Assembly (NCBI RefSeq): GCF_030064125.1
Contig: NZ_CP125957.1
Span: 4,216,001-4,280,000, forward strand
DNA: 64,000 nt
Reading direction: 5' to 3'
Source: Pseudomonas sp. G2-4
GTDB taxonomy: Bacteria; Pseudomonadota; Gammaproteobacteria; Pseudomonadales; Pseudomonadaceae
Part shown: one piece after another, positions 1,145 to 26,189 of the stretch
Numbering within the stretch: the stretch's first letter is position 1
Layout of the letters: the number at the start of each line of letters is the position of its first letter
Translations under genes and position numbers: made by a program
Notes under the pieces: generated by a model
Told to the model about the DNA's origin: nothing
Databases searched by the model: none
The model's input: the letters and a program-made list of their open reading frames with translations, nothing else

Positions 1145-1657
1145 ATGACGGATAGACAAAGCGCCGCCCCGGACCGACTTCACAGCCTCCCGCGCTATCG
1201 CCAGCCGCTGCCTCGTGAAAGCGTCACCCGGCACATCGTGGTCATGCAGTCGGCGGCTGCCTGCGCGCCCTTTGTCGGGGAACTGGAACAGCCCTTGGTG
1301 CTGAATGGCGAGAACGCCGACTTTTCCCAGCGCCTGCATCAGGTGCTGGCCAGCGCCACCGTCGGCAGTCATCTCTACATCATGGGCGACGAGGCCTTTA
1401 TCTGGCGCATCCATGGCGAAGCCCGCTGTGCCGGGCTGGAGGATGACGAGATCGACATCACCCGCACGATTGCCGGTGCGCGCCTGGTGTACTGCGTGCA
1501 CTGCGGCCTGACTCAGGCCACCGGGCCAGCGCCGCTGCTGGCCTGCATCGCTTGCGACGTAGCGCTGGAAGTCCGCGAACATTTTTCCCGCCGCCTCGGG
1601 GCGTATCTGGGCGTCTGCACCAACCCCGACCAGCCTTACGCCGCAGGCCGGTCATGA
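1145..1657 (+). CDS. dmmA: Dimethylamine monooxygenase subunit DmmA
   Basis: 170 aa. It resembles the small DmmA subunit of the DmmDABC dimethylamine monooxygenase, which oxidatively demethylates dimethylamine to methylamine. Two CxxC pairs near the C-terminus (C117/C120 and C134/C137) form a zinc-ribbon or rubredoxin-like knuckle. The rest of the chain has no recognisable catalytic motif. It is the first gene of a long forward operon and its stop overlaps the dmmB start (ATGA), so translation is probably coupled. An AGGAAAG ribosome-binding site precedes the ATG. The name rests mainly on the neighbouring dmmB and dmmC genes. Confidence 0.75.
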   Translation: MTDRQSAAPDRLHSLPRYRQPLPRESVTRHIVVMQSAAACAPFVGELEQPLVLNGENADFSQRLHQVLASATVGSHLYIMGDEAFIWRIHGEARCAGLEDDEIDITRTIAGARLVYCVHCGLTQATGPAPLLACIACDVALEVREHFSRRLGAYLGVCTNPDQPYAAGRS

Positions 1658-2583
1658 GCGCCGCAATCGAAGTGCGAGTCAGCGCGGCGAGAATGCTTAC
1701 CCCAGTGGTGCGCGAATTCACCCTGCAAGCCTGCGCCGAGCCATTACCGGTTTTCTCCCCTGGCAGTCATGTGCAGGTGCACCTGCCCCTGGCCGAGGGC
1801 AAGGTGCGCAATGCCTATTCACTGACCAGCGACCCGGCGGACAACCAGCATTACCGCATCGCCGTACGCCTGCAGGAGACCTCCCGCGGCGGCTCGCGCT
1901 ACCTGCATCGGCAAGTCCAGGTCGGGGACAGGCTGCAGATTTCGGCACCGGCCAATCTGTTCGCCCTGCACTCGACCGCCAGCCTGCACATTCTGATCGC
2001 CGGAGGCATCGGCATCACGCCGTTCATGGCCTACATCGCGGCCCTTGAACAACGCCAGGCTCACTTCGAATTGCACTACCTCTGTCGTCCAGGCCAGAGC
2101 GATGCCTATGTCGAGGCGTTGCAACAGCGGCTGGGATCACGTCTGCACACCTACCCCAGCCGGCCGGACCTGAGCCGGATCTTGCGTGATCGACCGCTGG
2201 GCAGCCACGTTTACACCTGCGGTCCGCAACCTTTGCTCGATGCGGTTCGGCAACAGGCCAGGGCCCTTGGCTGGCCGCCCGGCCGGGTGCACTGGGAAGC
2301 CTTCAATGCCGCACAACCGGGCCAACCCTTCGACCTGGTACTGCTGCGCAGCGGCCAGCGCTTACGCGTCGGCGCCGAACAAAGCCTGCTCGAAGCCCTG
2401 GAGTCCGCCGGACTGCAGATCCCCAATCTGTGCCGTGGCGGAGTCTGTGGCCAATGCATGACCCGCCATGTGGCCGGCGACATCGAACACCGCGACAGTT
2501 TCCTGAGCCCCGCCGAGCAGGCTGACTTTCTCATGCCCTGTGTCTCCCGCGGCTGCGGCCCTTGCGTTTCGCTGGATCTTTAG
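1654..2583 (+). CDS. dmmB: Dimethylamine monooxygenase reductase subunit DmmB (FAD/2Fe-2S)
   Basis: 309 aa from the ATG that overlaps the dmmA stop. This is a phthalate-dioxygenase-reductase/VanB-type electron donor that passes electrons from NAD(P)H to the oxygenase. Visible motifs are the flavin-binding RNAYSL at 52-57, the nucleotide-binding GGIGITPF at 117-124, and a C-terminal plant-type ferredoxin domain with C260, C265, C268 and C296. An open frame continues upstream of the ATG to 1552, but that part overlaps dmmA and is not needed. Together with dmmA and dmmC it should form the three-part dimethylamine monooxygenase. Confidence 0.9.
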   Translation: MSAAIEVRVSAARMLTPVVREFTLQACAEPLPVFSPGSHVQVHLPLAEGKVRNAYSLTSDPADNQHYRIAVRLQETSRGGSRYLHRQVQVGDRLQISAPANLFALHSTASLHILIAGGIGITPFMAYIAALEQRQAHFELHYLCRPGQSDAYVEALQQRLGSRLHTYPSRPDLSRILRDRPLGSHVYTCGPQPLLDAVRQQARALGWPPGRVHWEAFNAAQPGQPFDLVLLRSGQRLRVGAEQSLLEALESAGLQIPNLCRGGVCGQCMTRHVAGDIEHRDSFLSPAEQADFLMPCVSRGCGPCVSLDL

Positions 2584-2592
2584 GAGTCGACC

Positions 2593-3609
2593 ATGACCAT
2601 TCAATCAAGCCCCCTGCAGAGTTACCGAGACGACTTCAGTTTTCGCAACAGCCCCGCGGCCATCCGCCGTTTTCCCTTCCCCTTCACCGAGGACAGCTAC
2701 CTGTACTCGGTGAACATCGAACCGGCGATTTCGCGGGATCCAGGCTCGATCTACCAGCACGGGTTCGACATCGACGAACACTACCGTTCGGAAATGGCCG
2801 AACGCGCCCTGGTACTGGACAAGGATCCGCGCCGCTACCTGGTAATGCCGCACATGCAAGTGGCGGCCTGGGACGCGCTGCAGATGCTCATGGAGCACCT
2901 GGCCGCCGACTATCCGCAGTGGTTCACCCTAGAACGTGACAATGATCGCTGGCATTGGCGCAACACGCTGCTGAACATCGAACAGCACTTTGTGTTCGGT
3001 GATGCCACCAGCCTGCCCTGCGAACCGTTGGAGTTCATTGGCCGACAGGTACAGGGGGATTTCGCCCTCCTCGATCAACGCGACGGCGATCTGTACATGG
3101 ACGCTGGCCTGGTCACCAGCCCGGCCGACTGGTCCCTGGCCTTCGACGCCGGCATGAGTTTCAAGCAGTGGCATTCGCCGGTACCCATGGCCCATCAGAT
3201 GGGCATTTTCGACCGCGCGCTGAAGTACCTGCTCAACTTGCAAACGGGCCAGCCGGTGCGGCGCCTGAACTGGACACTGACGATCAATCCGCGCCTGGAC
3301 TCCTCCCCCGAGACTTTCCATGAATGGGGCGCCGACCGTGGCCGCATCAGCGCCGAAAACGTCGGGCAACAGGTTCACCTGCGGGTCGAGTTGCAAGTGA
3401 TGACCCGTCTGCCGCGCAGTAACGCGGTGATGTTCAGCATCCGCACCTACCTGATCAGCATGCAGGAACTGGTCACCCAGCCCGGCTGGGGCTGCCGCCT
3501 GCACCGTGTGCTGCGCGACCTGCCCGAGCCGATCGCCGACTACAAGGGCATGAGTCGTTATCGACAGACCCTGGTGGAGTGGCTGAGCCGCTTCGACCCG
3601 CAAGCCTGA
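2593..3609 (+). CDS. dmmC: Heme-dependent oxidative N-demethylase DmmC (DUF3445)
   Basis: 338 aa. It matches the DUF3445 family, described as heme-dependent oxidative N-demethylases. In DmmABC this subunit is thought to be the oxygenase component acting on dimethylamine, giving methylamine and a C1 unit. The opening FPFPF and the HMQ/DALQML region are typical of the family. No signal peptide is present. It sits 9 bp after dmmB behind a TAGGAG ribosome-binding site. Substrate specificity follows from context; other secondary amines are possible. Confidence 0.85.
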   Translation: MTIQSSPLQSYRDDFSFRNSPAAIRRFPFPFTEDSYLYSVNIEPAISRDPGSIYQHGFDIDEHYRSEMAERALVLDKDPRRYLVMPHMQVAAWDALQMLMEHLAADYPQWFTLERDNDRWHWRNTLLNIEQHFVFGDATSLPCEPLEFIGRQVQGDFALLDQRDGDLYMDAGLVTSPADWSLAFDAGMSFKQWHSPVPMAHQMGIFDRALKYLLNLQTGQPVRRLNWTLTINPRLDSSPETFHEWGADRGRISAENVGQQVHLRVELQVMTRLPRSNAVMFSIRTYLISMQELVTQPGWGCRLHRVLRDLPEPIADYKGMSRYRQTLVEWLSRFDPQA

Positions 3610-3643
3610 CCCCTCACCTACTTTTCCCGACAAGGATCTTCAC

Positions 3644-4774
3644 ATGACTCACTCATGGCGTATTTCCGCGCTGGCCGAACGGCACCGCGCACTCGGCTCG
3701 AACCTGGAAGACTGGAACGGCATGGGCACTGCCTGGACCTACGACAGCGACCTGGCCGATCACCATCAGGCGATCCGCACCCGGGCCGGGCTGATGGACG
3801 TGTCCGGGCTGAAAAAAGTCCACTACGTCGGCCCCCACGCCGAGAGCCTGTTGCAGTGGGCCACCACCCGCGACATCGCCAAGCTCTACCCCGGCAAGTC
3901 GGTGTATGCCTCGATGCTCGACGAGGACGGAAAATTCGTCGATGACTGCATCGTCTATCGCACCGGCCCCAACGCTTTCATGGTGGTCCATGGTGCCGGC
4001 AGTGGCCACGAAATGCTGGTGCGTTCATCTCAGGGTCGCCAGGTGGCGGTGCTGTTCGATGACGACTTGCACGATCTGTCACTGCAAGGGCCGCTGGCGG
4101 TGGATTTTCTCGCCGAGCACGTCCCCGGAATCCGTCAGCTGCCCTATTTCCATCACCTGCAAACCCGCCTGTTCGATCGCCCGGTGATGATTTCTCGCAC
4201 CGGTTACACCGGCGAGCGCGGCTACGAGATCTTCTGCAAGGCCGCCGATGCCCCGGCGCTGTGGGACACGATCCTCGAACAAGGCGCGGGCCTGGGCATC
4301 ATCCCTTGCGCCTTTACCGCCCTGGACTGGTTGCGGGTGGAAAGCTCGCTGATGTTTTTCCCCTACGACAACTCGCAGATGTACCCCTTCGCCGATCAGA
4401 AGGCTGGCGACACCCTGTGGGAAATGGGCCTGGATTTCACCGTCTCCCCGGACAAGCGCGAATTCCGAGGCGCCGAAGAGCACTTTCGGTTGCGCGGCCA
4501 AGAGCGCTTCAAAATCACCGGCGTGTTGCTCGAAGGTGTCCGAGCCGCGGAGGCCGGCGACACCTTGTGGCAGGGCAACCAGCAAGTCGGGGTGATCACC
4601 TGCGGCATGTATTCGCGCCTGAGCAAGCGCTCCATGGCCATCGCCCGGATGAGCGTTGCCTGCTCGAATCCAGGCATTGCCCTGCAGGTGCGCGGCAGCC
4701 AGGAAAGCGCTGCGGTGACCCACGCCCTGCCCTTCGACGACCCGGAAAAAACCAAGCGCACGGCCAAGGGCTGA
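3644..4774 (+). CDS. dmmD: GcvT-family aminomethyltransferase DmmD
   Basis: 376 aa, full length for the GcvT/aminomethyltransferase family, with the conserved SRTGYTGERGYEI segment in the middle third and the C-terminal barrel. GcvT-like proteins bind tetrahydrofolate and accept C1 units. Beside dmmABC the expected job is to take formaldehyde released by demethylation into 5,10-methylene-THF. In described dimethylamine loci this subunit is DmmD. Here it lies after dmmC, with purU immediately downstream, which agrees with flow of C1 units through folate. Confidence 0.85.
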   Translation: MTHSWRISALAERHRALGSNLEDWNGMGTAWTYDSDLADHHQAIRTRAGLMDVSGLKKVHYVGPHAESLLQWATTRDIAKLYPGKSVYASMLDEDGKFVDDCIVYRTGPNAFMVVHGAGSGHEMLVRSSQGRQVAVLFDDDLHDLSLQGPLAVDFLAEHVPGIRQLPYFHHLQTRLFDRPVMISRTGYTGERGYEIFCKAADAPALWDTILEQGAGLGIIPCAFTALDWLRVESSLMFFPYDNSQMYPFADQKAGDTLWEMGLDFTVSPDKREFRGAEEHFRLRGQERFKITGVLLEGVRAAEAGDTLWQGNQQVGVITCGMYSRLSKRSMAIARMSVACSNPGIALQVRGSQESAAVTHALPFDDPEKTKRTAKG

Positions 4775-4804
4775 GCCTCCAACACTTTATCCAAGGGACC
4801 CTCG

Positions 4805-5671
4805 ATGGACACCTCTAACGAACATTACATTCTCAAGATCAATTGCCCGGCAGCGTCCGGCATCGTTGCCGCGATCACCACCTGCCTGGCCGGACAGCAG
4901 TGCTACATCAGCGAGCTGGCGCAATTCGACGACGAGTTCACGGGGCAGTTTTTCATGCGCGCGGTGTTTCGTTTCAACTCTGGCGTGACCGGCGATGTCG
5001 GCGCTCTACGCGAGGGTTTGGGCGACCTGGCCGGCGGCTTCGACATGCAGTGGCAGCTGTTCTGCAGCAGTCAACCAACCCGGGTGCTGCTGATGGTCAG
5101 CAAGTTCGACCACTGCCTGACTGACCTGCTGTACCGCCACCGCAAAGGCGAGATGGACATGCACATCACCGCAGTGGTCTCCAACCATCTGGACCTGCGA
5201 GCCATGGCCGAACGCGAAGGCATTCGCTTCATCTACCTGCCGATCACCAAGGACAGCAAGGCCAGCCAGGAAGCCGAGTTGATGCGCATCGTCGAGGACA
5301 CTCAGACCGATCTGGTGGTGCTCGCCCGCTACATGCAGATTCTGTCCGACGGCCTGTGCCAGCAGCTGTCCGGCCGGGCCATCAACATCCATCACTCGTT
5401 CCTGCCCGGTTTCAAGGGCGCCAAGCCGTATCACCAGGCCTACGACCGTGGCGTGAAGTTGATCGGCGCCACCGCCCACTACGTCACCAGCGACCTCGAC
5501 GAGGGGCCCATCATCGAGCAGGAAATCCAGCGCGTCGACCACACCCACCTGCCCGATTCACTCGTTGCCATCGGTCGCGACACCGAAACCGTCGCCCTTT
5601 CCAAAGCCCTGAAATACCACCTGGAACACCGGGTATTCATCAACCAGGACAAGACGGTGATTTTTCGCTGA
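4805..5671 (+). CDS. purU: Formyltetrahydrofolate deformylase (copy 1)
   Basis: 288 aa, normal length for PurU. It has an N-terminal ACT domain (about 8-85) and a formyltransferase-like hydrolase domain with the conserved [16 protein letters not shown] block and [15 protein letters not shown]. It releases formate from 10-formyl-THF and regenerates THF. In this operon it would drain C1 units derived from amine methyl groups. A second, clearly paralogous 288-aa copy lies at 19418-20284. Confidence 0.95.
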
Positions 5672-5709
5672 GCGAACCCTTTTTCGAATCACAGCCACGA
5701 GAAACGACC

Positions 5710-7077
5710 ATGACCACACGCGTAGCAATCATCGGCGCCGGCCCTTGCGGCATGGCTCAACTGCGGGCATTTCAATCGGCCAGGGACCAGGGAACGCCCA
5801 TCCCGGAACTGGTCTGCTATGAAAAACAGCACGACTGGGGCGGCATGTGGAATTACACCTGGCGCACCGGTCTGGATGAAAACGGCGAACCGGTGCACGG
5901 CAGCATGTACCGCTACTTGTGGTCGAACGGCCCGAAGGAATGCCTGGAGTTCGCCGACTACACCTTCGAAGAACATTTTGGCCGCCCCATCGGCTCCTAT
6001 CCGCCACGGGAGGTGCTCTGGGACTACATCAAGGGCCGCGTAGAAAAAGCCGGGGTTCGCGACTACATCCGTTTCAACAACGTGGTGCGCCAGGTCACCT
6101 TTGACGAAGAGACTCGCCGCTTCACGGTGGTCGCCCAGGACCACGGCAGCGATACCCAGACCTCGGAAGAGTTCGACTATGTGATCAACGCCTGCGGGCA
6201 CTTTTCGACGCCGATGATGCCGTACTTCCCCGGATTCGAGCAGTTCGGCGGGCGCATCCTGCACGCCCATGATTTCCGCGATGCGCTGGAGTTCAAGGGC
6301 AAGGATCTGCTGATCGTCGGCAGCAGCTATTCTGCCGAAGACATCGGCTCCCAGTGCTACAAATATGGCGCCCGCAGCATCACCAGTTGCTACCGCACCG
6401 CACCCATGGGCTATGACTGGCCGGCCAACTGGGAAGAAAAACCGCTGTTACAGCGCCTGGAAAAAAACCGCGCGTACTTTATCGACGGCACCCACAAGCA
6501 CATCGATGCGGTGATCCTGTGCACCGGCTACAAACATCACTTCCCCTTCCTACCGGACGAACTGCGCCTCAAGACCGACAACCGGCTATGGCCGATGAAC
6601 CTGTACAAGGGCATCTTCTGGGAGCCCAACCCGCAGCTGATCTACCTCGGCATGCAGGACCAGTGGTACTCGTTCAACATGTTCGACGCCCAGGCCTGGT
6701 ACGCCCGAGACGTGATCCTGCAACGCATCGCCCTACCCGACCAGGCACAAAGGGCCGCCGATAGTCAGCAATGGCATGCCCGTGAACAGCAGCTTGAAAC
6801 CAATCAGCAGATGTTCGAATACCAGGGCGCCTATATCCAACAACTGGTGGACGCCACCGACTATCCGAACTTCGATATCGCCGCGGTCAACGACACCTTC
6901 CTGCACTGGAAGCACGACAAGGCCCACAACATCATGGGTTACCGCGACAAGTCCTACCGATCGCTGATGACTGGCACCCAGTCGCCCCCCCACCACACGC
7001 CTTGGCTGCATGCCCTTGACGACTCCATGGCGGCGTACCTCGCTGAACCGCCGATGTCCGTCAAGTCGATCGGTTGA
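5710..7077 (+). CDS. tmm: Trimethylamine monooxygenase (flavin-containing)
   Basis: 455 aa from the ATG at 5710. The protein closely resembles bacterial Tmm, which oxidises trimethylamine to trimethylamine N-oxide with NADPH and O2. Motifs are the FAD site GAGPCG at 9-14, the FMO fingerprint [11 protein letters not shown] at 179-189, and the NADPH site GSSYSAED at 204-211, which includes the Tyr207 known to matter in bacterial Tmm enzymes. The stretches [33 protein letters not shown] and [20 protein letters not shown] are hallmarks of Tmm rather than other FMOs. The open frame extends upstream to 5356 but overlaps purU, and an ACGAGAAACG segment precedes the chosen ATG. It is followed 15 bp later by tdm. 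Confidence 0.95.
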
Positions 7078-7092
7078 CCCGGGAGCCTCACC

Positions 7093-9435
7093 ATGAACGC
7101 ACCTCGTGTTTCCAGCCCGCGGGAGCCCGGACTCTTTGCCCGGGCACCGGCCCTGGAGCGCTATCGGGTGGCCGCTGGCGGCCTGACCCTTGTCGCGCTA
7201 CAGCCCGGCGACAGCCTGCAAGTGATCGATCTCGAAGGTCGGCAACCTTGCCAATTGCTGGCCGTGGATAGGCTCGGTCGCAGCGCCTTGGCAGCCTGGG
7301 CACTGAGCGGTTCGACGGCCTGCGGATTTATCGGCGCACGGCTCGCCGAACCGACCTTGCAGGCTCGGCGTATCAACCAGGCGTTGAGCCGACGCGGGAT
7401 TGATCCGCAACATCTGCCCAGCGCCGCGTCACTCTGGGACGAGGACAGCCCCGCCGGCTTCAGCCGCCGCTTCGTCGCCAGCGATGAGCTACTGGTGATC
7501 ATCGCGGCGCCCGCCGGACCGACCGCCGTTGACCGGCAATATCGGCCTAGCGAACTCAGGTCATGGGTGACACGGGCCAATCCCTCGCCCCTGCTACTCC
7601 CCGCGTTGCCAGAACCGTTGGGTGAATTAATTGACGAGTTCACCATTAGCGCCGGCACCGCCCACAGTTACACCGTCGGCAAAGGGCAGTACGTGCAGGT
7701 GCTGGACGTCGCCGGCCGCCAGTGCTCGGATTTCGTCGCTCTGGACCGGTGGGCTCTCGATCGCGGCCAGGAACTGGACCTGGACCAGACCGTGACCCGC
7801 ACCCTGAACGGCAGCGCCTACCCGGCACCGGGGATGTTCTCGAAGTTTTTCGACCGGCAGATGCAGCCGATGCTGGAGGTGGTGCGTGACACCGTCGGCC
7901 GCCACGATTCCTTCGCCCTGGCCTGCGCCGCGCGCTACTACGAGAGCCATGGCTACTTCGGGCACGACAACTGCAGCGACAACCTCAACCGAGTGCTCGC
8001 GCCCCATGGGGTCAAGGCCTGCAATGGCTGGCCGGCGATCAATTTCTTTTTCAATACCGGGATCGACGCCCACCAGCAGATGACGCTGGACGAGCCCTGG
8101 TCGCGTCCCGGCGATTACGTGCTGCTGCGGGCCATGACCGATCTGCTGTGTGGCAGCACCTCGTGCCCGGACGACATCGACCCGGCCAACGGCTGGAACC
8201 CGACCGATATCCAGATCCGCATCTATAGCGAAAAGGAGCGTTTTTCCATCGCCATGAGCACTCGAACCACGGCCGATGCCGACCCGATTCTCACCCGTGA
8301 GTCCGCGTTCCACTCACGCACCAGCGCCTTGACCGGCAGCTTTACCGACTACCGCAATTGGTGGCTGCCGCTGCGCTACGACGGCTATGGCGCCATCGAG
8401 GAATACCTCGGCTGTCGCGAACGCGTCGCGGTGATGGACCTGACCGCCCTGCGCAAATTCGAAATCATCGGCCCCGACGCCGAAGCCCTGCTGCAGTACT
8501 GCCTGACCCGGGATGTGCGGCGCCTGGCGGTGGGCCAAGTGGTGTACTCGGCGATGTGCCACGAGCACGGCGGCATGCTCGACGACGGCACCCTGCTGCG
8601 CCTGGGCCCGGACAATTTCCGCTGGATCTGCGGCGAGGATTACGCCGGGGTCTGGCTACGCGAACAGGCGCAAAAGCTCGGCATGAAGGTCTGGGTCAAA
8701 TCCGCCAGCGAGCAGATTCACAACCTGGCGGTCCAGGGCCCGATGAGCCGTGAACTACTCAAACAGATGGTCTGGACCCCACCGACCCAACCGAGCCTGG
8801 AAACCCTGGGCTGGTTCCGTTTCCTGGTGGGCCGCCTGGACGGTTACGACGGCTGTCCGCTGATGATCTCGCGCACCGGCTACACCGGCGAGTTGGGTTA
8901 CGAAGTCTGGTGCCAGCCCGAGGATGCCGAGCAGGTCTGGGACCGGATCTGGCAACTGGGCCAACCCTTGGGCCTGGTGCCACTGGGCCTGGAAGCGTTG
9001 GACATGCTGCGCATCGAAGCCGGGCTGATTTTCGCCGGCTACGAGTTCAGCGACCAGACCGATCCGTTCGAGGCCGGTATCGGCTTTTCCGTGCCGCTGA
9101 AAAGCAAAACCGACGATTTCATCGGCCGGGATGCGCTGTTGCGGCGCAGCGCCTGCCCCGCTCACAAGCTGGTGGGTCTGCAACTGAGTGGCAATGAAGG
9201 CGCCCACCACGGCGACCCGGTGTACCGCGGCCGAGCCCAGGTCGGGGTCATCACCAGTGCCTGCCGCTCGCCGCTGCTGGCCAGCAATATCGCGCTGTGC
9301 CGGGTCGACGTGGCCTGCGCCGACGTCGGCACGACGCTTGAGATCGGCAAAGTCGATGGCCTTCAGAAGCGCATCAGCGCCACGGTCACCGCAGCGATTT
9401 TCTACGACCCGGACAAGAGCCGGGTACGCAGTTGA
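7093..9435 (+). CDS. tdm: Trimethylamine-N-oxide demethylase (DUF1989-GcvT fusion)
   Basis: 780 aa, the length expected for Tdm. The N-terminal half (to about residue 390) is a DUF1989/urea-carboxylase-associated domain. Candidate zinc-binding cysteines are C294 in DNCSDN and C353/C358 in LLCGSTSCPDD. The C-terminal half is a GcvT-like THF-binding domain with SRTGYTGELGYEVW. Tdm non-oxidatively splits TMAO into dimethylamine and formaldehyde, and the second domain passes the C1 unit to THF. Placed directly after tmm and with dmmABCD upstream, it closes the trimethylamine-to-methylamine route. Confidence 0.92.
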   Translation: MNAPRVSSPREPGLFARAPALERYRVAAGGLTLVALQPGDSLQVIDLEGRQPCQLLAVDRLGRSALAAWALSGSTACGFIGARLAEPTLQARRINQALSRRGIDPQHLPSAASLWDEDSPAGFSRRFVASDELLVIIAAPAGPTAVDRQYRPSELRSWVTRANPSPLLLPALPEPLGELIDEFTISAGTAHSYTVGKGQYVQVLDVAGRQCSDFVALDRWALDRGQELDLDQTVTRTLNGSAYPAPGMFSKFFDRQMQPMLEVVRDTVGRHDSFALACAARYYESHGYFGHDNCSDNLNRVLAPHGVKACNGWPAINFFFNTGIDAHQQMTLDEPWSRPGDYVLLRAMTDLLCGSTSCPDDIDPANGWNPTDIQIRIYSEKERFSIAMSTRTTADADPILTRESAFHSRTSALTGSFTDYRNWWLPLRYDGYGAIEEYLGCRERVAVMDLTALRKFEIIGPDAEALLQYCLTRDVRRLAVGQVVYSAMCHEHGGMLDDGTLLRLGPDNFRWICGEDYAGVWLREQAQKLGMKVWVKSASEQIHNLAVQGPMSRELLKQMVWTPPTQPSLETLGWFRFLVGRLDGYDGCPLMISRTGYTGELGYEVWCQPEDAEQVWDRIWQLGQPLGLVPLGLEALDMLRIEAGLIFAGYEFSDQTDPFEAGIGFSVPLKSKTDDFIGRDALLRRSACPAHKLVGLQLSGNEGAHHGDPVYRGRAQVGVITSACRSPLLASNIALCRVDVACADVGTTLEIGKVDGLQKRISATVTAAIFYDPDKSRVRS

Positions 9436-9510
9436 TCGATCACACGAGCCTGTGCGCCACCCGACTTTGACTGCCCCACTACCACGCTACTCAGACATGG
9501 GAATACGAAG

Positions 9511-11190: not shown

Positions 11191-11216
11191 GCGCCCTTGC
11201 CAGCAGGTCTCTGATG

Positions 11217-11248
11217 GATCATCGGGGCGCAACGACGCCTCGATGATC
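11217..11248. repeat. Inverted repeat between permease gene and folD
   Basis: The 13-base arms GATCATCGGGGCG and CGCCTCGATGATC can pair throughout with one G-U wobble, around a 6-base loop. No T run follows, so it is not a standard terminator. It may reduce read-through or stabilise the upstream mRNA 3' end ahead of folD. Confidence 0.5.
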
Positions 11249-11276
11249 ACTTCGCGCCCCTATCAATCAAACGACG

Positions 11277-15971: not shown

Positions 15972-15982
15972 ATGTGCGCTCC

Positions 15983-16888: not shown

Positions 16889-16960
16889 ATCAAGTCTCCT
16901 TCGAAGGCACTGAACACCCGACGCCGCGCCGCGTGCCCGAATGGTTGTCAAAACACACAG

Positions 16961-18295: not shown

Positions 18296-18353
18296 TGCTC
18301 GTCACTCCTCGCGAAAGGCAAAACATCTTGAATGGGCCTTGACCGTCTTTTTA

Positions 18354-18386
18354 TTCCTAAAAAGAAAGTTATTTTCCCAATAGGAA
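18354..18386. promoter_or_regulatory. Candidate operator pair upstream of gmaS
   Basis: TTCCCAATAGGAA at 18374-18386 is a perfect match to the cluster motif. A weaker copy, TTCCTAAAAAGAA (10 of 13), starts exactly 20 bp to the left. It lies 59-91 bp before gmaS, where the promoter of the reverse operon is expected. Confidence 0.6.
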
Positions 18387-18448
18387 TGCAAAGCCCTTGC
18401 CAGATTCGCGAGTGAACGCAGAAACGCCGTGACAGGCGCTTTTGTGCT

Positions 18449-18481
18449 GTATATATGGGAATATTCTTTTCCCTGTGAGAA
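18449..18481. promoter_or_regulatory. Candidate operator upstream of the XRE-cupin regulator gene
   Basis: TTCCCTGTGAGAA (18469-18481) matches the motif at 9 of 13 positions. The sequence 20 bp to the left keeps only the GGGAA half. The pair sits about 90-120 bp before the regulator gene, in the shared divergent promoter, which would allow autoregulation with weaker binding. Confidence 0.4.
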
Positions 18482-18570
18482 TACTGCCCACAGGCAAGGC
18501 GCCAAGCAGTGCCATTTGCACTTTCTCAGTGCGAAACAAATATTACTGAACGGAAAGTGTGCAGGACCTG

Positions 18571-19176
18571 ATGACTATGTCGACCGAAACCGCCCCGCGC
18601 CTCAAGCTTGAGCAATACCTGGGATTGCAGATCAAGCGCCAGCGCCAGGCTCAGGATCTGAAATTATCTGACGTGGCCAAGATTGCCGATATCAGCCAGG
18701 GCATGCTGAGCAAAATCGAAAATGCCCAGGTGTCCACCAGCCTCGACACCTTGAGCCGTCTGTGCGACGTGCTCGGCCTGCCACTGTCGAAGCTGTTCAG
18801 CGAATACGACCAGCAAGACGGTAGTGCGTTGCTGGTCAAGGCTGATCAGGGGATGGAAGTGGTTCGACGAGGCACCGAGAAGGGTCATACCTATCATCTG
18901 CTCAATCACACTCGTGGGCCGAAGAAAAGTTTTGAGGCCTATATGGTCAGCATGGATGATGCGAGTGAAGAGTTTCCGACCTTCTCCCACCCCGGCACCG
19001 AATTCCTCCACTTGCTGGAAGGTGAGCTGATCTATCGCCACGGCAATCAGCTTTACCGAATGGAAGCTGGTGACAGCCTGACGTTCGAAGGCGAAATCCC
19101 CCACGGCCCCGAGCAGCTGGTGCAGGTGCCGATCCGCCTGTTGTCGATCATGAATTACGGCAACGACAAAGAATAA
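18571..19176 (+). CDS. XRE-family regulator with C-terminal cupin domain
   Basis: 201 aa from the ATG at 18571 (an ATG at 18577 or a GTG at 18559 are alternatives). The N-terminal helix-turn-helix is at about 15-70, LGLQIKRQRQ through GMLSKIENAQVSTSLDTL. A cupin barrel follows at about 110-190, with HPGTEFLHLLEGE and DSLTFEGEIPHGPEQ, a likely ligand or metal pocket. This architecture is that of PuuR-like regulators, several of which control amine catabolism. It is divergent from gmaS and sits in the middle of the amine cluster, so it is the prime candidate to bind the shared 33-bp element. Ligand and sign of regulation are unknown. Confidence 0.9.
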   Translation: MTMSTETAPRLKLEQYLGLQIKRQRQAQDLKLSDVAKIADISQGMLSKIENAQVSTSLDTLSRLCDVLGLPLSKLFSEYDQQDGSALLVKADQGMEVVRRGTEKGHTYHLLNHTRGPKKSFEAYMVSMDDASEEFPTFSHPGTEFLHLLEGELIYRHGNQLYRMEAGDSLTFEGEIPHGPEQLVQVPIRLLSIMNYGNDKE

Positions 19177-19207
19177 CGCCCCCACTTCCCTTGCTTTGCC
19201 CTGTCTT

Positions 19208-19230
19208 GAGGCCGACCCAGCGTCGGCCTC
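19208..19230 (+). terminator. Terminator-like hairpin after the regulator gene
   Basis: A perfect 9-bp stem, GAGGCCGAC/GTCGGCCTC, with a 5-base loop, followed by ACGAATTTTC. It lies 32 bp after the regulator stop and separates it from the second purU operon. Confidence 0.7.
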
Positions 19231-19300
19231 ACGAATTTTCCTGTCAGTTAAAAAACTTTCTTGAAAGCTCTGGACGCGGCGCGACCATTCCCCTATAAAG

Positions 19301-19333
19301 CCACAACCAGGAATAATTTATTCCCAACAAGAA
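19301..19333. promoter_or_regulatory. Candidate operator pair upstream of purU2-folD2-mgdABCD
   Basis: TTCCCAACAAGAA (19321-19333) matches the cluster motif at 12 of 13 positions. The half starting 20 bp earlier keeps the CAGGAA side (8 of 13). It lies 85-117 bp before purU copy 2. The 20-bp spacing is the same as at the other three sites. Confidence 0.55.
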
Positions 19334-19417
19334 AATACGCTCATGGATGAGCCTGCTGTCCGTCGATGATTTTTTTCGCTATGCGATGAGCTGCCGCCAT
19401 CATCCCGAGGACGTGTC

Positions 19418-20284
19418 ATGCAACACGAAAAAAACCATTTCATCATCAAGATCACCTGTCCCGCGGTGTCCGGCATCGTCGCTGCCGTCACCACCTACCT
19501 AGCGGACAATGGTTGCTACATCGGGGAGATGGCGCAATTCGATGACGATTTCAGCGGCCGTTTTTTCATGCGTGCGGTGTTCCGCTTCAACGACAGCCAT
19601 CAGGGCGACATCCAACAGATCAAGGACGGCTTCGCCGACGTCGCCCAAGCATTCGACATGACCTGGGAATTGCACGACACCCGCGAGCCGATGCGTGTCC
19701 TGCTGATGGTCAGCAAGTTCGACCACTGCCTGACCGACCTGCTCTATCGCTACCACAAAGGCGAGATGGACATGACCATCACCGCCATCGTCTCCAACCA
19801 CCTCGACCTGCGGCCCATGGCTGAACGCGAAGGCATTCGTTTCATCTACTTGCCGGTGACCAAGGAAACCAAGGCTCGACAGGAAACCGAGCTGATGAAG
19901 ATCGTCGACGACACCGGCACCGAACTGGTGGTATTGGCGCGCTACATGCAAATCCTCTCTGATGACCTGTGCAAGCAACTCTCCGGGCGGGCGATCAACA
20001 TTCACCATTCGTTCTTACCCGGCTTCAAAGGAGCCAAGCCTTATCACCAAGCCTACCAGCGTGGTGTGAAACTGATCGGCGCCACCGCTCATTACGTCAC
20101 CAGCGACCTCGATGAGGGACCGATCATTGAGCAGGAAGTACAGCGCGTCGATCACGTCTACCTACCCGACGACCTGGTTGCCACCGGCCGTGACACCGAA
20201 ACCGTGGCCCTGTCCAAGGCGGTCAAGTATCACCTGGAGCACCGGGTTTTCCTCAACCAGGACAGAACGGTGATCTTCCGGTGA
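19418..20284 (+). CDS. purU: Formyltetrahydrofolate deformylase (copy 2)
   Basis: 288 aa, colinear with copy 1 at 4805-5671 over the whole length, including [20 protein letters not shown] and the HLEHRVF...NQD...TVIFR end. It hydrolyses 10-formyl-THF to formate and THF. First gene of the mgd operon; its stop overlaps the folD start by 4 bp. It would serve the methylene-THF made by MgdABCD, as copy 1 serves DmmD and Tdm. Confidence 0.95.
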
Positions 20285-21186
20285 ACGCATACAAACTGAT
20301 CGACGGAAAGGCCACTGCCGCCCGCGTCCTGGTGCAGGTTCGCGAGGACGTGGAGCGCCTGCGCGAGCAAGACATTCAACCGGCCTTGGCGGTGATTCTC
20401 GTGGGCAGCGACCCTGCCAGCCAGGTCTATGTGCGAAACAAGATCCTGCGCGCCGAAGAAGTGGGTATCCGCTCGCTGGAACATCGGCTGTCCACGGACA
20501 CCAGCACTGAACAGTTGCTCATTCTGATCGCCCGACTGAATACCGATCGCTCAATCCACGGCATTCTGCTGCAACTGCCGCTGCCTTCGCATATCGACGA
20601 ATTACGCGCACTGGAGGCTATCGCTCCGGACAAGGATGTAGACGGGTTTCACAGTCAGAACGTCGGTGGTCTCAGCCAGGGTCGCACGGTACTCGCGCCC
20701 TGCACCCCCAGTGGTTGTTTGTATCTGCTGGAACAAACCTGCGGCGATCTACGCGGCAAGCACGCGGTGGTGATCGGCCGCTCGAACATCGTCGGCAAAC
20801 CCATGGCCGCGTTGTTGCTGCAGGCCGACTGCTCGGTGACCGTCCTGCATTCGCGCAGCCCGGATCCGCAGGCCCTGTGCCGCCAGGCAGACATCGTCAT
20901 CGCCGCCGTGGGTCGCCCACGATTGATCGACGCCAGTTGGCTCAAACCTGGCGCAGTGGTGATCGACGTCGGCATCAACCGCATCGAAGAGGATGGCCGC
21001 AGTCGCCTGGTGGGCGACGTCGACTTCGACAGCGCCCTGGCACACGTCGCGGCGATCACCCCGGTGCCCGGTGGTGTCGGCCCGATGACCATTGCCTTCC
21101 TGATGAAAAACACTGTCACCGCAGCCCTTGCACAACACCGGGCCCTACGCAGCCAATCGGAGGCCTTATGCCATTCAATCTATTGA
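20281..21186 (+). CDS. folD: Methylene-THF dehydrogenase / methenyl-THF cyclohydrolase (copy 2)
   Basis: 301 aa from a GTG that overlaps the purU stop. It has the same motifs as copy 1: [35 protein letters not shown] and [18 protein letters not shown]. It oxidises and cyclohydrolyses C1-THF from N-methylglutamate oxidation to formyl-THF. Its 3' end overlaps mgdA by 19 bp, so the two are probably translationally coupled. Confidence 0.93.
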
Positions 21187-22409
21187 AATACGGGCTGAGT
21201 TCGGAGTACCCGGTGGAAGTGGATTTGCCGCCACCGAAGGAACTCAAGTCGAGCTATGACGTGGTGATCATCGGTGCCGGCGGCCACGGCCTGGCCATCG
21301 CTTATTACCTGGCCAAGTACCATGGCATCACTAATGTCGCGGTGTTGGAGAAGTCCTACCTGGGCGGCGGCAATACCGCGCGCAACACCGCGGTGATCCG
21401 CTCCAACTACCTGACCAGCGAAGGCGTGCGTTTCTATGCCGAATCGGTGCGGATGTTCCAGGGGCTTTCGAACGAGTTCGACTTCAACATCATGTATTCC
21501 GAGCGCGGCCAACTGACCCTGGCCCACACCGATGCCACGGTGCGTTCGTTCCGTCAGCGCGCCGAGGTGAACAAACACTTCGGCGGCCGTACCGAAATGA
21601 TTGATCGCCAGCAGATTCGCGAGCTGGTACCCAGCCTCAACCTCGATCCCGGCCACTTGCCGGTGATCGCCGGCCTGTGGCATATCGACGGCGCCACCGC
21701 GCGCCACGACGCCGTGGCCTGGGGTTACGCCAAGCAGGCGGCCAAGCGCGGTGTGGAAATCCATCAGCTCACCGAAGTCCAGGACCTGATCATCGAGAAC
21801 GGGGCGATCATCGCCGTGAAAACCAATCGCGGCACGATCAAATGTGGTTGCGCGGTGCAAGCGATTGCCGGGCACAGCTCATTGCTGATGACCAAGGCCG
21901 GGATCCGTTCGCCGATCCAGACCTTCCCGCTACAAGCGATGGTCACCCAGCCGTTCAAGCCGTTTCTTGATCCGCTGGTGAGCTCCTCCGCCCTGCACTG
22001 CTACGTGCAACAAACCAGCCGTGGCGAAGTGGTGTTCGGCGGCGGATCCGATCCCTATCCGCTGTTCAACACCCGCTCGACGCTGGACCTCAAGGAAAGC
22101 TTGCTAGCCCATGCGATCGAGATGTTCCCGTTCCTGGCCAACGCCAAGCTGATGCGCCAATGGGCCGGGATCACCGACATGACCCCGGATTACAGTCCGA
22201 TCATGGGCTTGTCGCCGGTGAAGAATTACTACCTCGACGCGGGCTGGGGTACCTGGGGCTTCAAGGCCACGCCGATCTGCGGCAAGACCATGGCCGAGTT
22301 GGTGGCCAGCGGCGGCAAGGTGCCGGATCTGATCAAACCTTTCGGCCTCGAACGTTTCTCGACCTTCCAGCAAGTCAACGAAATGGGCGCCACGGCGGCC
22401 AGTCACTGA
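21168..22409 (+). CDS. mgdA: N-methylglutamate dehydrogenase subunit A (SoxB-like)
   Basis: 413 aa from the ATG at 21168, preceded by CGGAGG; an open frame continues upstream but overlaps folD. It is homologous to the beta subunit of heterotetrameric sarcosine oxidase, with the FAD-binding [19 protein letters not shown] near residue 30 and [12 protein letters not shown] near the C-terminus. It holds the catalytic flavin for oxidation of an N-methyl amino acid. With gmaS and mgsABC in the cluster the substrate is most likely N-methylglutamate rather than sarcosine. Confidence 0.88.
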
Positions 22410-22422: not shown

Positions 22423-22725
22423 ATGAAAATCATGACTTGCCCGCTCAACGGGCCGCGCAATATCAGCGAATTCACCTATGGCGGTGAATTCAAGCCGATG
22501 CCTGACCCGGTCAGTTGCAGCGATGCCGAATGGGCCGACTACGTGTTCAACACCGACAACCTCGCCGGTGTGGTGCGCGAATGGTGGATGCACACGCCAT
22601 CCAGCTACTGGTTTCTGGCGGAGCGTCACACCGTCACCGATGAAATCCTGCGGACCTTCGACCCCAAAGAGCTCTTCAGCACCCGTGTCGAATTCAACGC
22701 CGCCGCCAAGGAGATCGCAGGATGA
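22423..22725 (+). CDS. mgdB: N-methylglutamate dehydrogenase subunit B (SoxD-like)
   Basis: 100 aa, the size of the sarcosine oxidase delta subunit. The start KIMTCPLNGPRNISEF and the late VREWWMHTPSSYWFLAER are typical. The small subunit binds zinc in sarcosine oxidase (Cys6 is visible here). It sits 13 bp after mgdA and overlaps mgdC by 4 bp. Confidence 0.88.
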   Translation: MKIMTCPLNGPRNISEFTYGGEFKPMPDPVSCSDAEWADYVFNTDNLAGVVREWWMHTPSSYWFLAERHTVTDEILRTFDPKELFSTRVEFNAAAKEIAG

Positions 22726-25619
22726 ATCGCCTCCCCGCCCCCATGGGCTTGCTGATCGACCGTGATCAGCCGCTGGATTTCAGCTTCGACGGCCAGCGCT
22801 ATCAAGGCTTGCAGGGCGACAGCATCGCCAGTGCCTTGCTGGCCAACGGACGCTTCCTGATCTCCCGCTCGTTCAAATACCATCGCCCGCGTGGCCCTCT
22901 GACGATGGCCGGCCAGGACGCCAACAGCCTGGTGCAATTGCCCGAAGAACCCAACGTACTGGCTGATGCACACGCGTTGTCCGCTGGGTTGCAGGTGACG
23001 GCGCAGAACGTCAACGGCTCGCTGGATAACGACCGCGACGCCTACCTGGGCAAGTTCTCCAAATTCATGCCAGTGGGCTTCTACTACCGCTCGTTCTACA
23101 AGCCCAAAGGCATGTGGAAGGTCTGGGAGCCGATCATTCGCAAGAAGGCCGGCCTCGGTGTGCTTGACCTGAAGTTTCAGCCTGAATACTACGACAAGGC
23201 CTACCTTTTCACCGACCTGGCAGTCATCGGCGCAGGCCCCGCAGGGCTCCATGCGGCGCTGACGGCAGCCAACGCGGGAGCCAAGGTGTTGATCATCGAG
23301 CAACAGCCGATTCTCGGCGGTTCCCTCACCTATGCCCGCTTCGATATAGAAGGTAACAAGGCTGAAAACCTACGTCGCGAACTGCTCGCTGCGGTCGAGC
23401 AACACGCCAATATCCAGATCTTGACCGAGGCCACGTGCAACGCCTGGTTCACCGACAACTACCTGCCGGTGATTCAGGGCAAACGCCTGTACAAGGTCCG
23501 CGCCCGCCAGTGCCTGGTGTGCAGCGGCGCGTTCGATCAGCCGGTTATCTTTCGCAACAACGACCTGCCGGGCGTGATGCTGACCAGCGCCGCGCAACGA
23601 CTGATGAAACTGTATGCGGTCAAACCGGGTAAACGCGCCGTGGTGCTGACGGGCAACGATGACGGTTACCTCGCCGCGCTGGATCTGCATGATCAGGGCG
23701 TGGAGGTCGTCGCCGTGGTGGACCTGCGCCAGGGTCCTTCGGACGAATCCTTGCTGCGCGCACTGGCGCAACGCAAGATCTACCATCAGAGCAACAGCAC
23801 CGTCTATGAAGCCCTGCACGAGAAAGGCATGCGCCATATCAACGGCGTCGACGTGCGCAAAATCACCGCACAAGGCCAGGTCGCCGAGAGCGGGCAACAC
23901 CTGGAGTGCGATTTACTGTGTATGTCCGCCGGTTACATGCCGGTCTATCAACTGCTGTGCCAGGCCGGCGGCAAACTGGCCTACGACGATCAGCGGGCCG
24001 AGTTCACGCTCAGCGGCCTACCAAAGAATCTGAATGTCGCCGGCTCGGTCAACGGTCGTCACCAGCTCGATAACGTGATTGCCGATGGTGTGAATGCCGG
24101 TGCCGATGCCGCCCTCGCGCTGGGTCTGGCAGTCGGCACGCAACGCGCGCCATTGAGCGGCGAGGCTCGGGTCAACTTTAATTGGCCAATCTTCCCGCAC
24201 CCCAAAGGCAAGGACTTCGTTGACTTCGACGAGGATCTGCAAGTAGCCGACATCGTCAACGCCACCCGGATCGGCTATCGCGACGTGCAACTGGTCAAGC
24301 GCTACTCCACCGTCGGCATGGGCCCGTCCCAGGGTCGTCACTCGGCGCTGCCGACCGCGCGGTTGGTCGCCTGGGCCACCCAGCGCAACATCAGTGAAAC
24401 CGGCGTAACCACCGCGCGACCGCCGTTTGTTGCGGAAAAGCTCGCGCATGTCGCCGGTCGCGCGTTCGACCCATACCGGCAAACGCCGATGCACGCTTGT
24501 CACCTGCAAGCCGGAGCGAAGATGATGCCCGCCGGCATCTGGCAGCGCCCGGCCTATTACGGCAACGCCAAGGATCGCGAGACATGCATGCAGGCCGAAG
24601 CCCTGCACGTGCGCAACAAGGTCGGCATCATCGATGTCTCGACCCTCGGTGGCCTTGATGTGCGCGGCCCGGATGCGGCCGAACTGCTCAATCGGATGTA
24701 CACCTTTGCGTTCCTCAAGCAGCCGATCGGCCGCTCCCGTTACGCGCTGATGACCAATGAGCACGGCGTGGTAATCGACGACGGCGTCTGTGCGCGCTTT
24801 GCCGAGAACCATTTCTACGTCACGGCCACCACCAGCGGTGTCGACCGGATCTATCAGCAAATGCTCAAGTGGAACGCGCAATGGCGCCTCGACGTGGATG
24901 TCGCCAACGTCACCGCGGCCATTTGCGCGGTGAACCTTGCCGGGCCGGACTCGCGCAAGGTGTTGGAACAGGTCTGCACCGACCTCGACCTGAGCGCCGA
25001 TGCCTTCCCTTATCTGGGCGTTCGCCAAGGCACCGTGGCCGGCATCAAGGCTCGGTTGTTGCGGGTCGGTTTTGTCGGCGAACTGGGCTATGAAATCCAC
25101 GTACCCGCGCGTCATGGGCTCAAGCTCTGGGACGCACTGATTGAGGCCGGCAAAGCACATGACATCCGCCCCTTCGGCGTCGAAACACAGCGCCTGCTGC
25201 GTCTGGAAAAAGGCCATGTGATCATCAGCCAGGACACCGACGGCATGACTCACCCGGCGGAAATCGACATGGGCTGGGCGATCAGTCGCACCAAGCCGTT
25301 CTTTGTCGGCCGCCGCTCAGTAGACATCCTCGAAGCTCAGCCACTGAAACGCAAACTGGTGGGTTTCAGCCTGCCAAGGAACAGCCCGCAACCGCTTGAG
25401 GGACACCTGGTGCTCAACGGCCCGGACATCAGCGGGAATGTCACGTCCTGCGAATATTCCGCCACCCTTGGCAAGATCATCGGCCTGGCCTACGCCGGCA
25501 TCGACCAAAGTACTCCGGGGCAAAAAATCCCGATCCGTGTCGAAGGTGGCATCGTAGTCCAGGCCGAGGTGGTGCCGTTGCCCTTCTTTGATCCAGACAA
25601 CCAACGCCAGGAGCTTTGA
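22722..25619 (+). CDS. mgdC: N-methylglutamate dehydrogenase subunit C (SoxA-like)
   Basis: 965 aa, matching the alpha subunit of heterotetrameric sarcosine oxidase. In order it has an N-terminal 2Fe-2S-like region near SFKYHRPRG, an NAD(P)-type Rossmann segment AVIGAGPAGLHAALTAANAGA, and a C-terminal GcvT-like THF-binding domain (about 580-965) with GFVGELGYEIHVP. The last domain yields 5,10-methylene-THF. It overlaps the end of mgdB. Use of NAD(P) rather than oxygen as electron acceptor, as in N-methylglutamate dehydrogenases, is inferred from context. Confidence 0.88.
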   Translation: MNRLPAPMGLLIDRDQPLDFSFDGQRYQGLQGDSIASALLANGRFLISRSFKYHRPRGPLTMAGQDANSLVQLPEEPNVLADAHALSAGLQVTAQNVNGSLDNDRDAYLGKFSKFMPVGFYYRSFYKPKGMWKVWEPIIRKKAGLGVLDLKFQPEYYDKAYLFTDLAVIGAGPAGLHAALTAANAGAKVLIIEQQPILGGSLTYARFDIEGNKAENLRRELLAAVEQHANIQILTEATCNAWFTDNYLPVIQGKRLYKVRARQCLVCSGAFDQPVIFRNNDLPGVMLTSAAQRLMKLYAVKPGKRAVVLTGNDDGYLAALDLHDQGVEVVAVVDLRQGPSDESLLRALAQRKIYHQSNSTVYEALHEKGMRHINGVDVRKITAQGQVAESGQHLECDLLCMSAGYMPVYQLLCQAGGKLAYDDQRAEFTLSGLPKNLNVAGSVNGRHQLDNVIADGVNAGADAALALGLAVGTQRAPLSGEARVNFNWPIFPHPKGKDFVDFDEDLQVADIVNATRIGYRDVQLVKRYSTVGMGPSQGRHSALPTARLVAWATQRNISETGVTTARPPFVAEKLAHVAGRAFDPYRQTPMHACHLQAGAKMMPAGIWQRPAYYGNAKDRETCMQAEALHVRNKVGIIDVSTLGGLDVRGPDAAELLNRMYTFAFLKQPIGRSRYALMTNEHGVVIDDGVCARFAENHFYVTATTSGVDRIYQQMLKWNAQWRLDVDVANVTAAICAVNLAGPDSRKVLEQVCTDLDLSADAFPYLGVRQGTVAGIKARLLRVGFVGELGYEIHVPARHGLKLWDALIEAGKAHDIRPFGVETQRLLRLEKGHVIISQDTDGMTHPAEIDMGWAISRTKPFFVGRRSVDILEAQPLKRKLVGFSLPRNSPQPLEGHLVLNGPDISGNVTSCEYSATLGKIIGLAYAGIDQSTPGQKIPIRVEGGIVVQAEVVPLPFFDPDNQRQEL

Positions 25620-25622
25620 GTC

Positions 25623-26189
25623 ATGACCAGTCTGAGAGAACAACACAGCATCGCCCGGCAACCCCTGACGCCGTTGCCGGGGTGCTGCCTGGCGGACCTC
25701 ACCGACCTGCCACGGGTGGGTTTTCGCGGTGCCCATGCTGCCGAGTACCTGCGCAGCCGCGGCTTCGTGCTGCCGGATGCGCCCAACCGTGCGGTGATTC
25801 AAGCCGATGGCAGTCAAGTAGCGCGGCTGTCACAGACCGAATACCTGCTGCTCGGCAGTCCAAAGGATCAAGGCCAACGAATGGCGGATGAGGAAGCCCA
25901 GTGGGAACTGGACCACCGCGCCAACTATCTGCTGCCGCGCCAAGACAGTCACGCCTGCTTTCAACTATCGGGAGAACACCTGAGCGAGGTGATGGCTAAA
26001 CTATGCGGCGTCGACTTGAGTTTGCAGGCGTTCGGCCCGGGTACAGTGGCGCAAACCTCCGCGGCGCGGATCAACGTGATCGTGATCAATTCAGACACCG
26101 TGCAACAAAGGAGCTTGCACATCCTTTGTGACCGGGCGTCGCGGGAGTATTTTCGGGAGGCGTTGGAGGATGCAATGCAAGAGTATTGA
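25623..26189 (+). CDS. mgdD: N-methylglutamate dehydrogenase subunit D (SoxG-like)
   Basis: 188 aa, similar in size and in the SGEHLSEVMAKLCGVDLS and QTSAARINVIVI segments to the gamma subunit of sarcosine oxidase, itself a reduced GcvT-like domain. It sits 3 bp after mgdC and ends the operon. The next gene is the converging tRNA-Gly. Confidence 0.85.
   Translation: MTSLREQHSIARQPLTPLPGCCLADLTDLPRVGFRGAHAAEYLRSRGFVLPDAPNRAVIQADGSQVARLSQTEYLLLGSPKDQGQRMADEEAQWELDHRANYLLPRQDSHACFQLSGEHLSEVMAKLCGVDLSLQAFGPGTVAQTSAARINVIVINSDTVQQRSLHILCDRASREYFREALEDAMQEY

Follow-up and report, generated by a model that had tools for sequence, protein, structure and literature searches.

Gene content of the methylated-amine locus

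The DNA analysed here is a 64,000-nucleotide stretch of Pseudomonas sp. G2-4 (contig NZ_CP125957.1, positions 4,216,001 to 4,280,000; hereafter the window), and it contains an unbroken methylated-amine locus. All genes named in the initial annotation, encoding the trimethylamine (TMA) monooxygenase Tmm, the trimethylamine N-oxide (TMAO) demethylase Tdm, DmmABCD, GmaS, MgsABC and MgdABCD, were found at positions 1145–26189 with no internal stops. The plus strand carries dmmA-dmmC-dmmB-dmmD-purU1-tmm-tdm-permease-folD1; facing this block on the minus strand is gmaS-mgsA-mgsB-mgsC-amt; after the gmaS block the plus strand is used again, for an XRE-cupin regulator and purU2-folD2-mgdA-mgdB-mgdC-mgdD. 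This gene order confirmed that the whole chain lies in one contiguous locus, which by the family assignments would take all three methyl groups off TMA and keep the nitrogen. The named genes do fall inside 1145–26189, but the locus does not start at 1145: on the other side of dmmA, and transcribed away from it, are genes for a kinase, a response regulator and a PAS protein.

1145–1657, plus strand: dmmA, dimethylamine monooxygenase subunit (NF041259, 102 bits, cut-off 60; PF22289/PF22290)
1654–2583, plus strand: dmmC, ferredoxin/flavin adenine dinucleotide (FAD) reductase subunit (Fer2, FAD_binding_6 and DmmA-like_N domains; start revised)
2593–3609, plus strand: dmmB, haem-dependent oxidative N-demethylase (PF11927; PDB 5lte, 614 bits, residues 1–338)
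3644–4774, plus strand: dmmD, GcvT-like folate-binding protein (GCV_T domain; assigned by context)
4805–5671, plus strand: purU1, formyl-tetrahydrofolate (THF) deformylase (TIGR00655, over cut-off)
5710–7077, plus strand: tmm, trimethylamine monooxygenase (NF058570, 831 bits, cut-off 675; PDB 6hns, flavin monooxygenase, 866 bits)
7093–9435, plus strand: tdm, TMAO demethylase, DUF1989 plus GCV_T (NF053776, 1152 bits, cut-off 1100; PDB 9q59, 875 bits, residues 4–780)
9511–11190, plus strand: TMAO permease, APC family (NF053774 "TMAO permease", 844 bits, cut-off 690)
11277–12209, plus strand: folD1, methylene-THF (CH2-THF) dehydrogenase/cyclohydrolase (borderline cut-offs, Pfam)
12263–13588, minus strand: amt, transporter of ammonium/methylammonium, 441 aa with the start judged most likely (TIGR00836, 431 bits, cut-off 343; start set by inspection)
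13924–15267, minus strand: mgsC, glutamate-synthase-like subunit of N-methylglutamate synthase (PF01645; context)
15288–15971, minus strand: mgsB, GXGXG subunit (PF01493; context)
15983–16888, minus strand: mgsA, class II glutamine amidotransferase subunit, N-terminus MCGIVG (PF13522/PF13537; start revised)
16961–18295, minus strand: gmaS, gamma-glutamylmethylamide synthetase (TIGR03105 "type III glutamate-ammonia ligase", 658 bits, cut-off 470)
18559–19176, plus strand: XRE-cupin transcription regulator (HTH_3 and Cupin_2; start perhaps 18571)
19418–20284, plus strand: purU2 (TIGR00655, over cut-off)
20281–21186, plus strand: folD2 (NF010790, 584 bits, cut-off 508)
21168–22409, plus strand: mgdA, FAD subunit of N-methylglutamate dehydrogenase, SoxB-like (TIGR01373, 455 bits, below cut-off 529; start revised)
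22423–22725, plus strand: mgdB, SoxD-like (PF04267)
22722–25619, plus strand: mgdC, SoxA-like with GCV_T folate domain (TIGR01372, 890 bits, below cut-off 1164; Pfam)
25623–26189, plus strand: mgdD, SoxG-like (TIGR01375, 34 bits, weak, cut-off 144; position)

Curated NCBIfam cut-offs were passed by Tmm, Tdm, the TMAO permease, DmmA, both PurU proteins (322 and 327 bits against TIGR00655, cut-off 286), FolD2, GmaS and Amt, and FolD1 was borderline (501 against a cut-off of 508 for PRK14194, 396.6 against 396 for PRK14188). Solved relatives also fit Tmm, Tdm, DmmB and GmaS: for Tdm, 9q59 is itself a TMAO demethylase, and for DmmB, 5lte, which we take to be from P. mendocina, is a haem-dependent oxidative N-demethylase. 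GmaS matched PDB 9qur, "glutamate-methylamine ligase", with 659 bits, the next structure (7cql) with 316 and glutamine synthetases with at most 244, and the ligase is identified by these similarities as GmaS rather than a glutamine synthetase. DmmC, DmmD, MgsABC and MgdABCD were assigned through domains and context, none being over an equivalog cut-off and all Mgd matches to sarcosine-oxidase models being below theirs; the domains and order of MgsABC and MgdABCD fit, while neither of the two libraries used (NCBIfam and Pfam) gave a match to a dedicated model. Start positions were revised for tmm (5710), dmmC (1654), mgdA (21168) and mgsA (16888). Among the accessory genes, the two FolD/PurU pairs, the Amt protein and the regulator were present as described, and the "APC permease" could be refined to a TMAO permease homologue. 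The locus thus holds a Tmm-type flavin monooxygenase, a DUF1989-GcvT Tdm, DmmABC with a haem-dependent N-demethylase subunit and GmaS, which together mark the aerobic TMA oxidation pathway.

Distribution in Pseudomonas and other genera

Tdm was matched in 51 of 398 genomes of the genus and GmaS in 97, with both in 49; two genomes have Tdm without GmaS (G133 and G391) and 48 have GmaS without Tdm. In the gene-neighbourhood search that had been proposed for Tdm plus GmaS across Pseudomonas genomes, 36 of the 51 Tdm genomes have the two genes no more than 30 kb apart and 4 have them farther apart on one contig, the other 11 having them on different contigs or having no GmaS. Twenty other Tdm loci, selected for long contigs and spread, were fetched, and in 16 of them the set of 14 core genes is complete within 31 kb; in the other four the gmaS or mgd block is incomplete in the stretch. 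The same gene order, as far as the regulator (the reach of the stretches), was found in P. mandelii, P. lini, P. marginalis, P. gingeri and P. viridiflava, among others, and the blocks are arranged differently in other loci of Pseudomonas, Stutzerimonas, Nitrincola and Paraburkholderia.

The rarity implied in the initial annotation is rejected by these genus-wide counts and by the gene order recurring in named species: the TMA chain is frequent in Pseudomonas, and the locus is a typical example of an accessory trait whose distribution is ordinary within the genus. P. putida KT2440 has no GmaS or N-methylglutamate synthase homologues according to the available text of PMC6237917, which fits a patchy trait.

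In two genomes the Tdm match is in two pieces, at G358:C1:5734094-5736081 (internal stops) and at G285:C239:2863-5168 (two frames or an assembly break), and both have a stop-free GmaS match. Tdm relatives were also found in 139 of 72,556 plasmid records, 138 of the 139 at less than 60% identity, chiefly in Rhizobium (95) and Acinetobacter (20).

Operator-like repeat and promoter elements

Aligning the promoter regions of the cluster revealed a shared repeat, TTCCYNNNNRGAA. In the window it has seven strand-matches at five places (starting at 1079, 18354, 18374, 18469 and 19321), confined to three promoter regions of the cluster: between the histidine kinase gene and dmmA, between gmaS and the regulator gene, and between the regulator gene and purU2. 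One hundred dinucleotide shuffles gave a mean of 1.43 matches and none reached seven. The elements of these regions are:

1079–1091, no strand: operator-like repeat TTCCCCATAGGAA, between the kinase gene and dmmA
18354–18366, no strand: operator-like repeat, gmaS upstream region
18374–18386, no strand: operator-like repeat, directly behind the sigma-54 element, near the expected gmaS transcript start
18387–18402, minus strand: sigma-54-type promoter TGGCAAGGGCTTTGCA, for gmaS-mgsABC and perhaps amt
18469–18481, no strand: operator-like repeat, closer to the regulator gene
18517–18533, no strand: NtrC-like box TGCACTTTCTCAGTGCG, with a second, weaker box at 18547–18563
19321–19333, no strand: operator-like repeat, upstream of purU2-folD2-mgdABCD

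Since the pattern was derived from the same promoter regions, other loci are a fairer test. The 20 other Tdm loci together with the window (661,021 bases) contain 140 strand-matches; two of these fall within mapped genes of the cluster, and searching with the reversed pattern gave no match. Across all 121 stretches (2,455,156 bases) 322 sites stand against 11 for the reversed pattern. These counts are not independent, as the loci are related to one another and in part duplicates. In 17 of the 20 other Tdm loci a site is located between the kinase (or response regulator) gene and dmmA, and two of the remaining three (G113 and G165) have sites between the kinase gene and tmm. Upstream of dmmA, 52 of 87 regions carry a site; this count is probably low because the starts had to be extrapolated from partial matches, and the scan of the Tdm loci shows sites in loci counted there as empty. 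The operator-like repeat is a new element of the promoter regions of this cluster.

The sigma-54 consensus is TGGCACGN4TTGCW, and TGGCAAGGGCTTTGCA is the sole match to it in the window at one mismatch. With the NtrC-like box upstream, the region before gmaS presents in its sequence the feature of sigma-54/NtrC-dependent nitrogen genes, a -24/-12 element plus an upstream NtrC-like site. We compared 68 gmaS upstream regions, from 16 Tdm genomes, the window, 20 genomes without Tdm and 31 named loci, some strains being included twice. The TGGC...TTGC element was found in 64, at least one operator also in 64, and a GCAC-N7-GTGC NtrC-like box in 61. The four regions that lack both element and operator are Burkholderia-type loci, and G163, L213 and L073 are further regions without the box. 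The sigma-54 element and operator as a composite, TGGCAHNNNNNTTGCANTCCYNNNNRGAA, occurs in 71 of the 398 genomes, with one copy each, and all 71 copies lie within 450 bases upstream of gmaS on the same strand. The composite was found in no genome without a GmaS match, nor did the reversed control give any in the 398 genomes. Tdm is present in 33 of the 71 genomes and absent from 38, and the composite can serve as a genome marker of the methylamine branch. Scans of positions 900–20000 for sigma-70 promoters and terminators gave results at or below chance.

Kinase, response regulator and PAS protein

Left of dmmA, a two-component module runs on the minus strand and beyond the window:

988 down past 1, minus strand: NarX-type histidine kinase (HisKA_3, HATPase_c), divergent from dmmA
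Left of the window, L108:11412-13989, minus strand: 3′ end of the kinase gene, LuxR-type response regulator, PAS protein (Pfam)

The kinase is located at window positions 1–988 and L108:13002-13989, and the Pfam scan revealed no sensor domain in it. In 80 named loci, tdm has as neighbours the PAS protein gene in 68, the response regulator gene in 63 and the kinase gene in 59, and part of the missing genes are explained by stretch ends, 17 of the 80 stretches being shorter than 22 kb. Genus-wide, the PAS protein was matched in 51 of 398 genomes (E 1e-35), namely in 48 of the 51 with Tdm (not in G180, G357 and G391) and in 3 of the 347 without (G244, G322 and G336). The PAS protein, with the kinase/response-regulator module alongside, therefore travels with Tdm. 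In G336 (G336:C16:189695-197404) gmaS and a partial PAS-protein match are 6 kb apart and Tdm is unmatched; this pair is perhaps a cluster remnant.

Among the most conserved residues within the first 160 positions of 72 aligned kinases are Cys111 (present in 64), Cys108 (63), Cys94 (56) and, to a lesser degree, Cys88 (50). These cysteines might bind a metal or an iron-sulphur cluster, and the kinase may serve to sense metals, thiols or oxygen. A sigma-54-like element with two mismatches also lies before the kinase gene, at 1000–1015.

Predicted pathway and probable nitrogen use

The enzymes and the pathway are already known, and the cluster is real and intact. The steps of the pathway run from TMA to TMAO, dimethylamine, methylamine (MMA), gamma-glutamylmethylamide, N-methylglutamate and glutamate, and the gene content supports this chain here. 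Tmm would oxidise TMA to TMAO, which could be imported by the permease as well; Tdm and DmmABC(D) would each remove one methyl group; and GmaS, MgsABC and MgdABCD would bring methylamine to glutamate nitrogen. The formaldehyde would be captured as CH2-THF at the GcvT-like domains of Tdm, DmmD and MgdC, and the one-carbon units would leave as formate through the two FolD/PurU pairs. Activity of the enzymes in this strain is what we infer from their assignments. We consider it probable that the locus is of the known Tmm-Tdm-Dmm-N-methylglutamate type, complete and intact, that it is used chiefly for nitrogen, and that it is under a dual control of the kind proposed below.

Use mainly as a nitrogen source had first been argued from the missing formaldehyde and formate dehydrogenases. 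Their absence holds for the locus, but the genome encodes elsewhere a glutathione-independent formaldehyde dehydrogenase FdhA (771 bits, cut-off 637), a class III alcohol dehydrogenase (724 bits, cut-off 544) and a formate dehydrogenase alpha subunit (939 bits, cut-off 666), and the argument therefore fails. The conclusion itself is favoured on another ground, the sigma-54/NtrC-like promoter before gmaS. With the three dehydrogenases over their cut-offs, the locus might instead be as much a source of carbon and energy as of nitrogen, with the formate released by FolD/PurU oxidised by the formate dehydrogenase and nitrogen being a by-product; we regard this as unlikely in view of that promoter, of the amt gene within the locus and of P. 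mendocina MET, from the same genus, being termed not a methylotroph in the accessible part of PMC9800807.

Several points weigh against a complete pathway under nitrogen control. The genome's dehydrogenases could oxidise the one-carbon units for energy, and the identities of DmmD, MgsABC and MgdABCD are drawn from domains and context. In the window, sigma-54 matches allowing two mismatches or fewer are about as frequent as expected by chance (18 found, 16.6 expected), as are NtrC-like boxes (4 found, 3.2 expected), and both patterns were rejected as statistical signals of the window; the one point in their favour is their conserved place before gmaS, in loci that are related. The exact composite is missing from 26 of the 97 GmaS genomes, and the TGGC...TTGC element and the operator are absent from all four Burkholderia-type gmaS loci (L062, L068, L070 and L088). 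In P. stutzeri A1501, loss of ntrC raised rather than lowered the activity on methylamine (PMC8443478), and this may bear on gmaS as well. As a separate observation, an XRE-cupin regulator (53–54% identity) still adjoins gmaS in the four Burkholderia-type loci.

Proposed control model and remaining alternatives

The gmaS operon, with its sigma-54 promoter and upstream NtrC-like box, would be switched on under nitrogen limitation. The XRE-cupin regulator would bind TTCCYNNNNRGAA close to where the gmaS, dmm/kinase and purU2-mgd transcripts begin, and its repression would be lifted once a metabolite of the methylamine pathway is bound. The kinase/response-regulator/PAS module would sense the upstream amines or their products and control tmm-tdm-dmm. 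Binding, repression and effector we infer from the observed gene content, conservation and site positions. One operator lies directly behind the sigma-54 element, at about the expected transcription start, and this position suggests repression.

The neighbouring XRE-cupin regulator is the likely reader of the repeat. All 20 gmaS stretches fetched, of 48, from genomes without Tdm have the operator between gmaS and the regulator gene together with an XRE-cupin gene (82–99% identity), 18 of these 20 genomes lack a PAS-protein match, and of 15 loci that gave no kinase match, 11 carry the repeat upstream of dmmA. Because the operator persists in gmaS loci without Tdm and in dmmA loci with no kinase match, we prefer the XRE-cupin protein to the response regulator as reader. 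The repeat might instead be the site of the LuxR-type response regulator, which would agree with its position next to dmmA, on the side of the kinase gene, both in the window and in the 17 other Tdm loci; the same two sets of loci make this rather improbable.

Taking the XRE-cupin protein as the reader, we tentatively propose, at somewhat less than even confidence, that the methylamine branch in Pseudomonas is under a double lock that differs from the control known in marine bacteria. NtrC and sigma-54 would gate gmaS, and a product-sensing XRE-cupin repressor would act on an operator shared by gmaS, mgd and dmm; the soluble cysteine-cluster kinase, the response regulator and the PAS protein, gained and lost with tdm, would sense TMA, TMAO, formaldehyde or oxygen. 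In the titles and opening lines of abstracts of the open-licence PMC papers retrieved by searches aimed at two-component, NtrC or sigma-54 control, this operator, this promoter and the kinase/PAS module were not described for TMA genes, and the control is apparently a variant not described in the literature found. The regulation of TMA use has been worked out in the marine bacterium Ruegeria pomeroyi (PMC13390433, text available in part), and for a predicted control circuit in Pseudomonas the sites can now be named.

As a last alternative, the main substrates of the enzymes might be other compounds, with MgdABCD, for instance, working as a sarcosine oxidase and GmaS as another amine ligase, but this is very improbable: the NCBIfam models matched well by the Mgd subunits are of sarcosine-oxidase type only and the GmaS model is named for glutamate-ammonia ligase, but the Mgd scores are below the sarcosine-oxidase cut-offs, GmaS is nearest by far to the solved glutamate-methylamine ligase, and every step of the pathway is found in one locus.

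Flanks of the cluster

On the right, some 175 bases separate the end of the cluster from the 3′ end of a tRNA-Gly(gcc) gene (window 26364–26439), beyond which follow a conserved stretch and then uvrC; the gene between the tRNA and uvrC is presumably pgsA. The neighbourhood of the tRNA is a possible insertion site, and the cluster may have arrived there as a genomic island. None of pgsA, uvrC and the tRNA was found in the 0.8–3.4 kb beyond mgdD of the 16 other Tdm loci that reach mgdD, and the right flank of the window had no match among those 16. Conversely, no cluster genes were found in the 10-kb stretches beside the tRNA-Gly of 16 relatives without Tdm (for G017 the stretch was on the uvrC side; those of G032 and G018 yielded no tRNA). 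On the left, 7 of the 20 loci have a flank that matches, in part and mostly over less than 500 bases, the DNA beyond the PAS gene. Farther to the right, the Pseudomonas small RNA P15 was found at 31135–31253 (Rfam RF00627, 127 bits).

Comparison with known systems

The nearest likeness is the TMA cluster of Ruegeria pomeroyi DSS-3 (SPO1548-1588), which also has tmm, tdm, dmmDABC, gmaS-mgsABC and mgdABCD in one region and uses methylated amines as a nitrogen source, as given in the available text of PMC13390433. The same text names two regulators for Ruegeria, TmaR (AraC type) near mgd and TmoR (GntR type) near tmm. Unlike Ruegeria, the present locus combines an XRE-cupin regulator with a kinase/regulator/PAS module and a sigma-54-type promoter, and neither an AraC nor a GntR domain came up in Pfam scans of the 21 cluster proteins and the scanned neighbours. 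TmaR is induced by a compound that arises later in the pathway than MMA (PMC13390433), and by analogy a similar inducer is plausible here.

Aminobacter has the same enzymes (strain NyZ550, PMC11446756; strain MET, PMC9800807), and for strain MET FolD and PurU are listed too, as here. In the accessible text of these papers, however, Aminobacter carries separate clusters, tdm-tmm-dmmDABC and mgsABC-gmaS-mgdABCD, together with a serine cycle, whereas Pseudomonas sp. G2-4 has one cluster. The initial annotation had left it to be seen whether such a locus was already described in Pseudomonas; a complete TMA pathway, as here, is already in print for Pseudomonas sp. GX19020, and this strain is reported with TmaR in the part of PMC13390433 available, unlike the regulators seen at the present locus.

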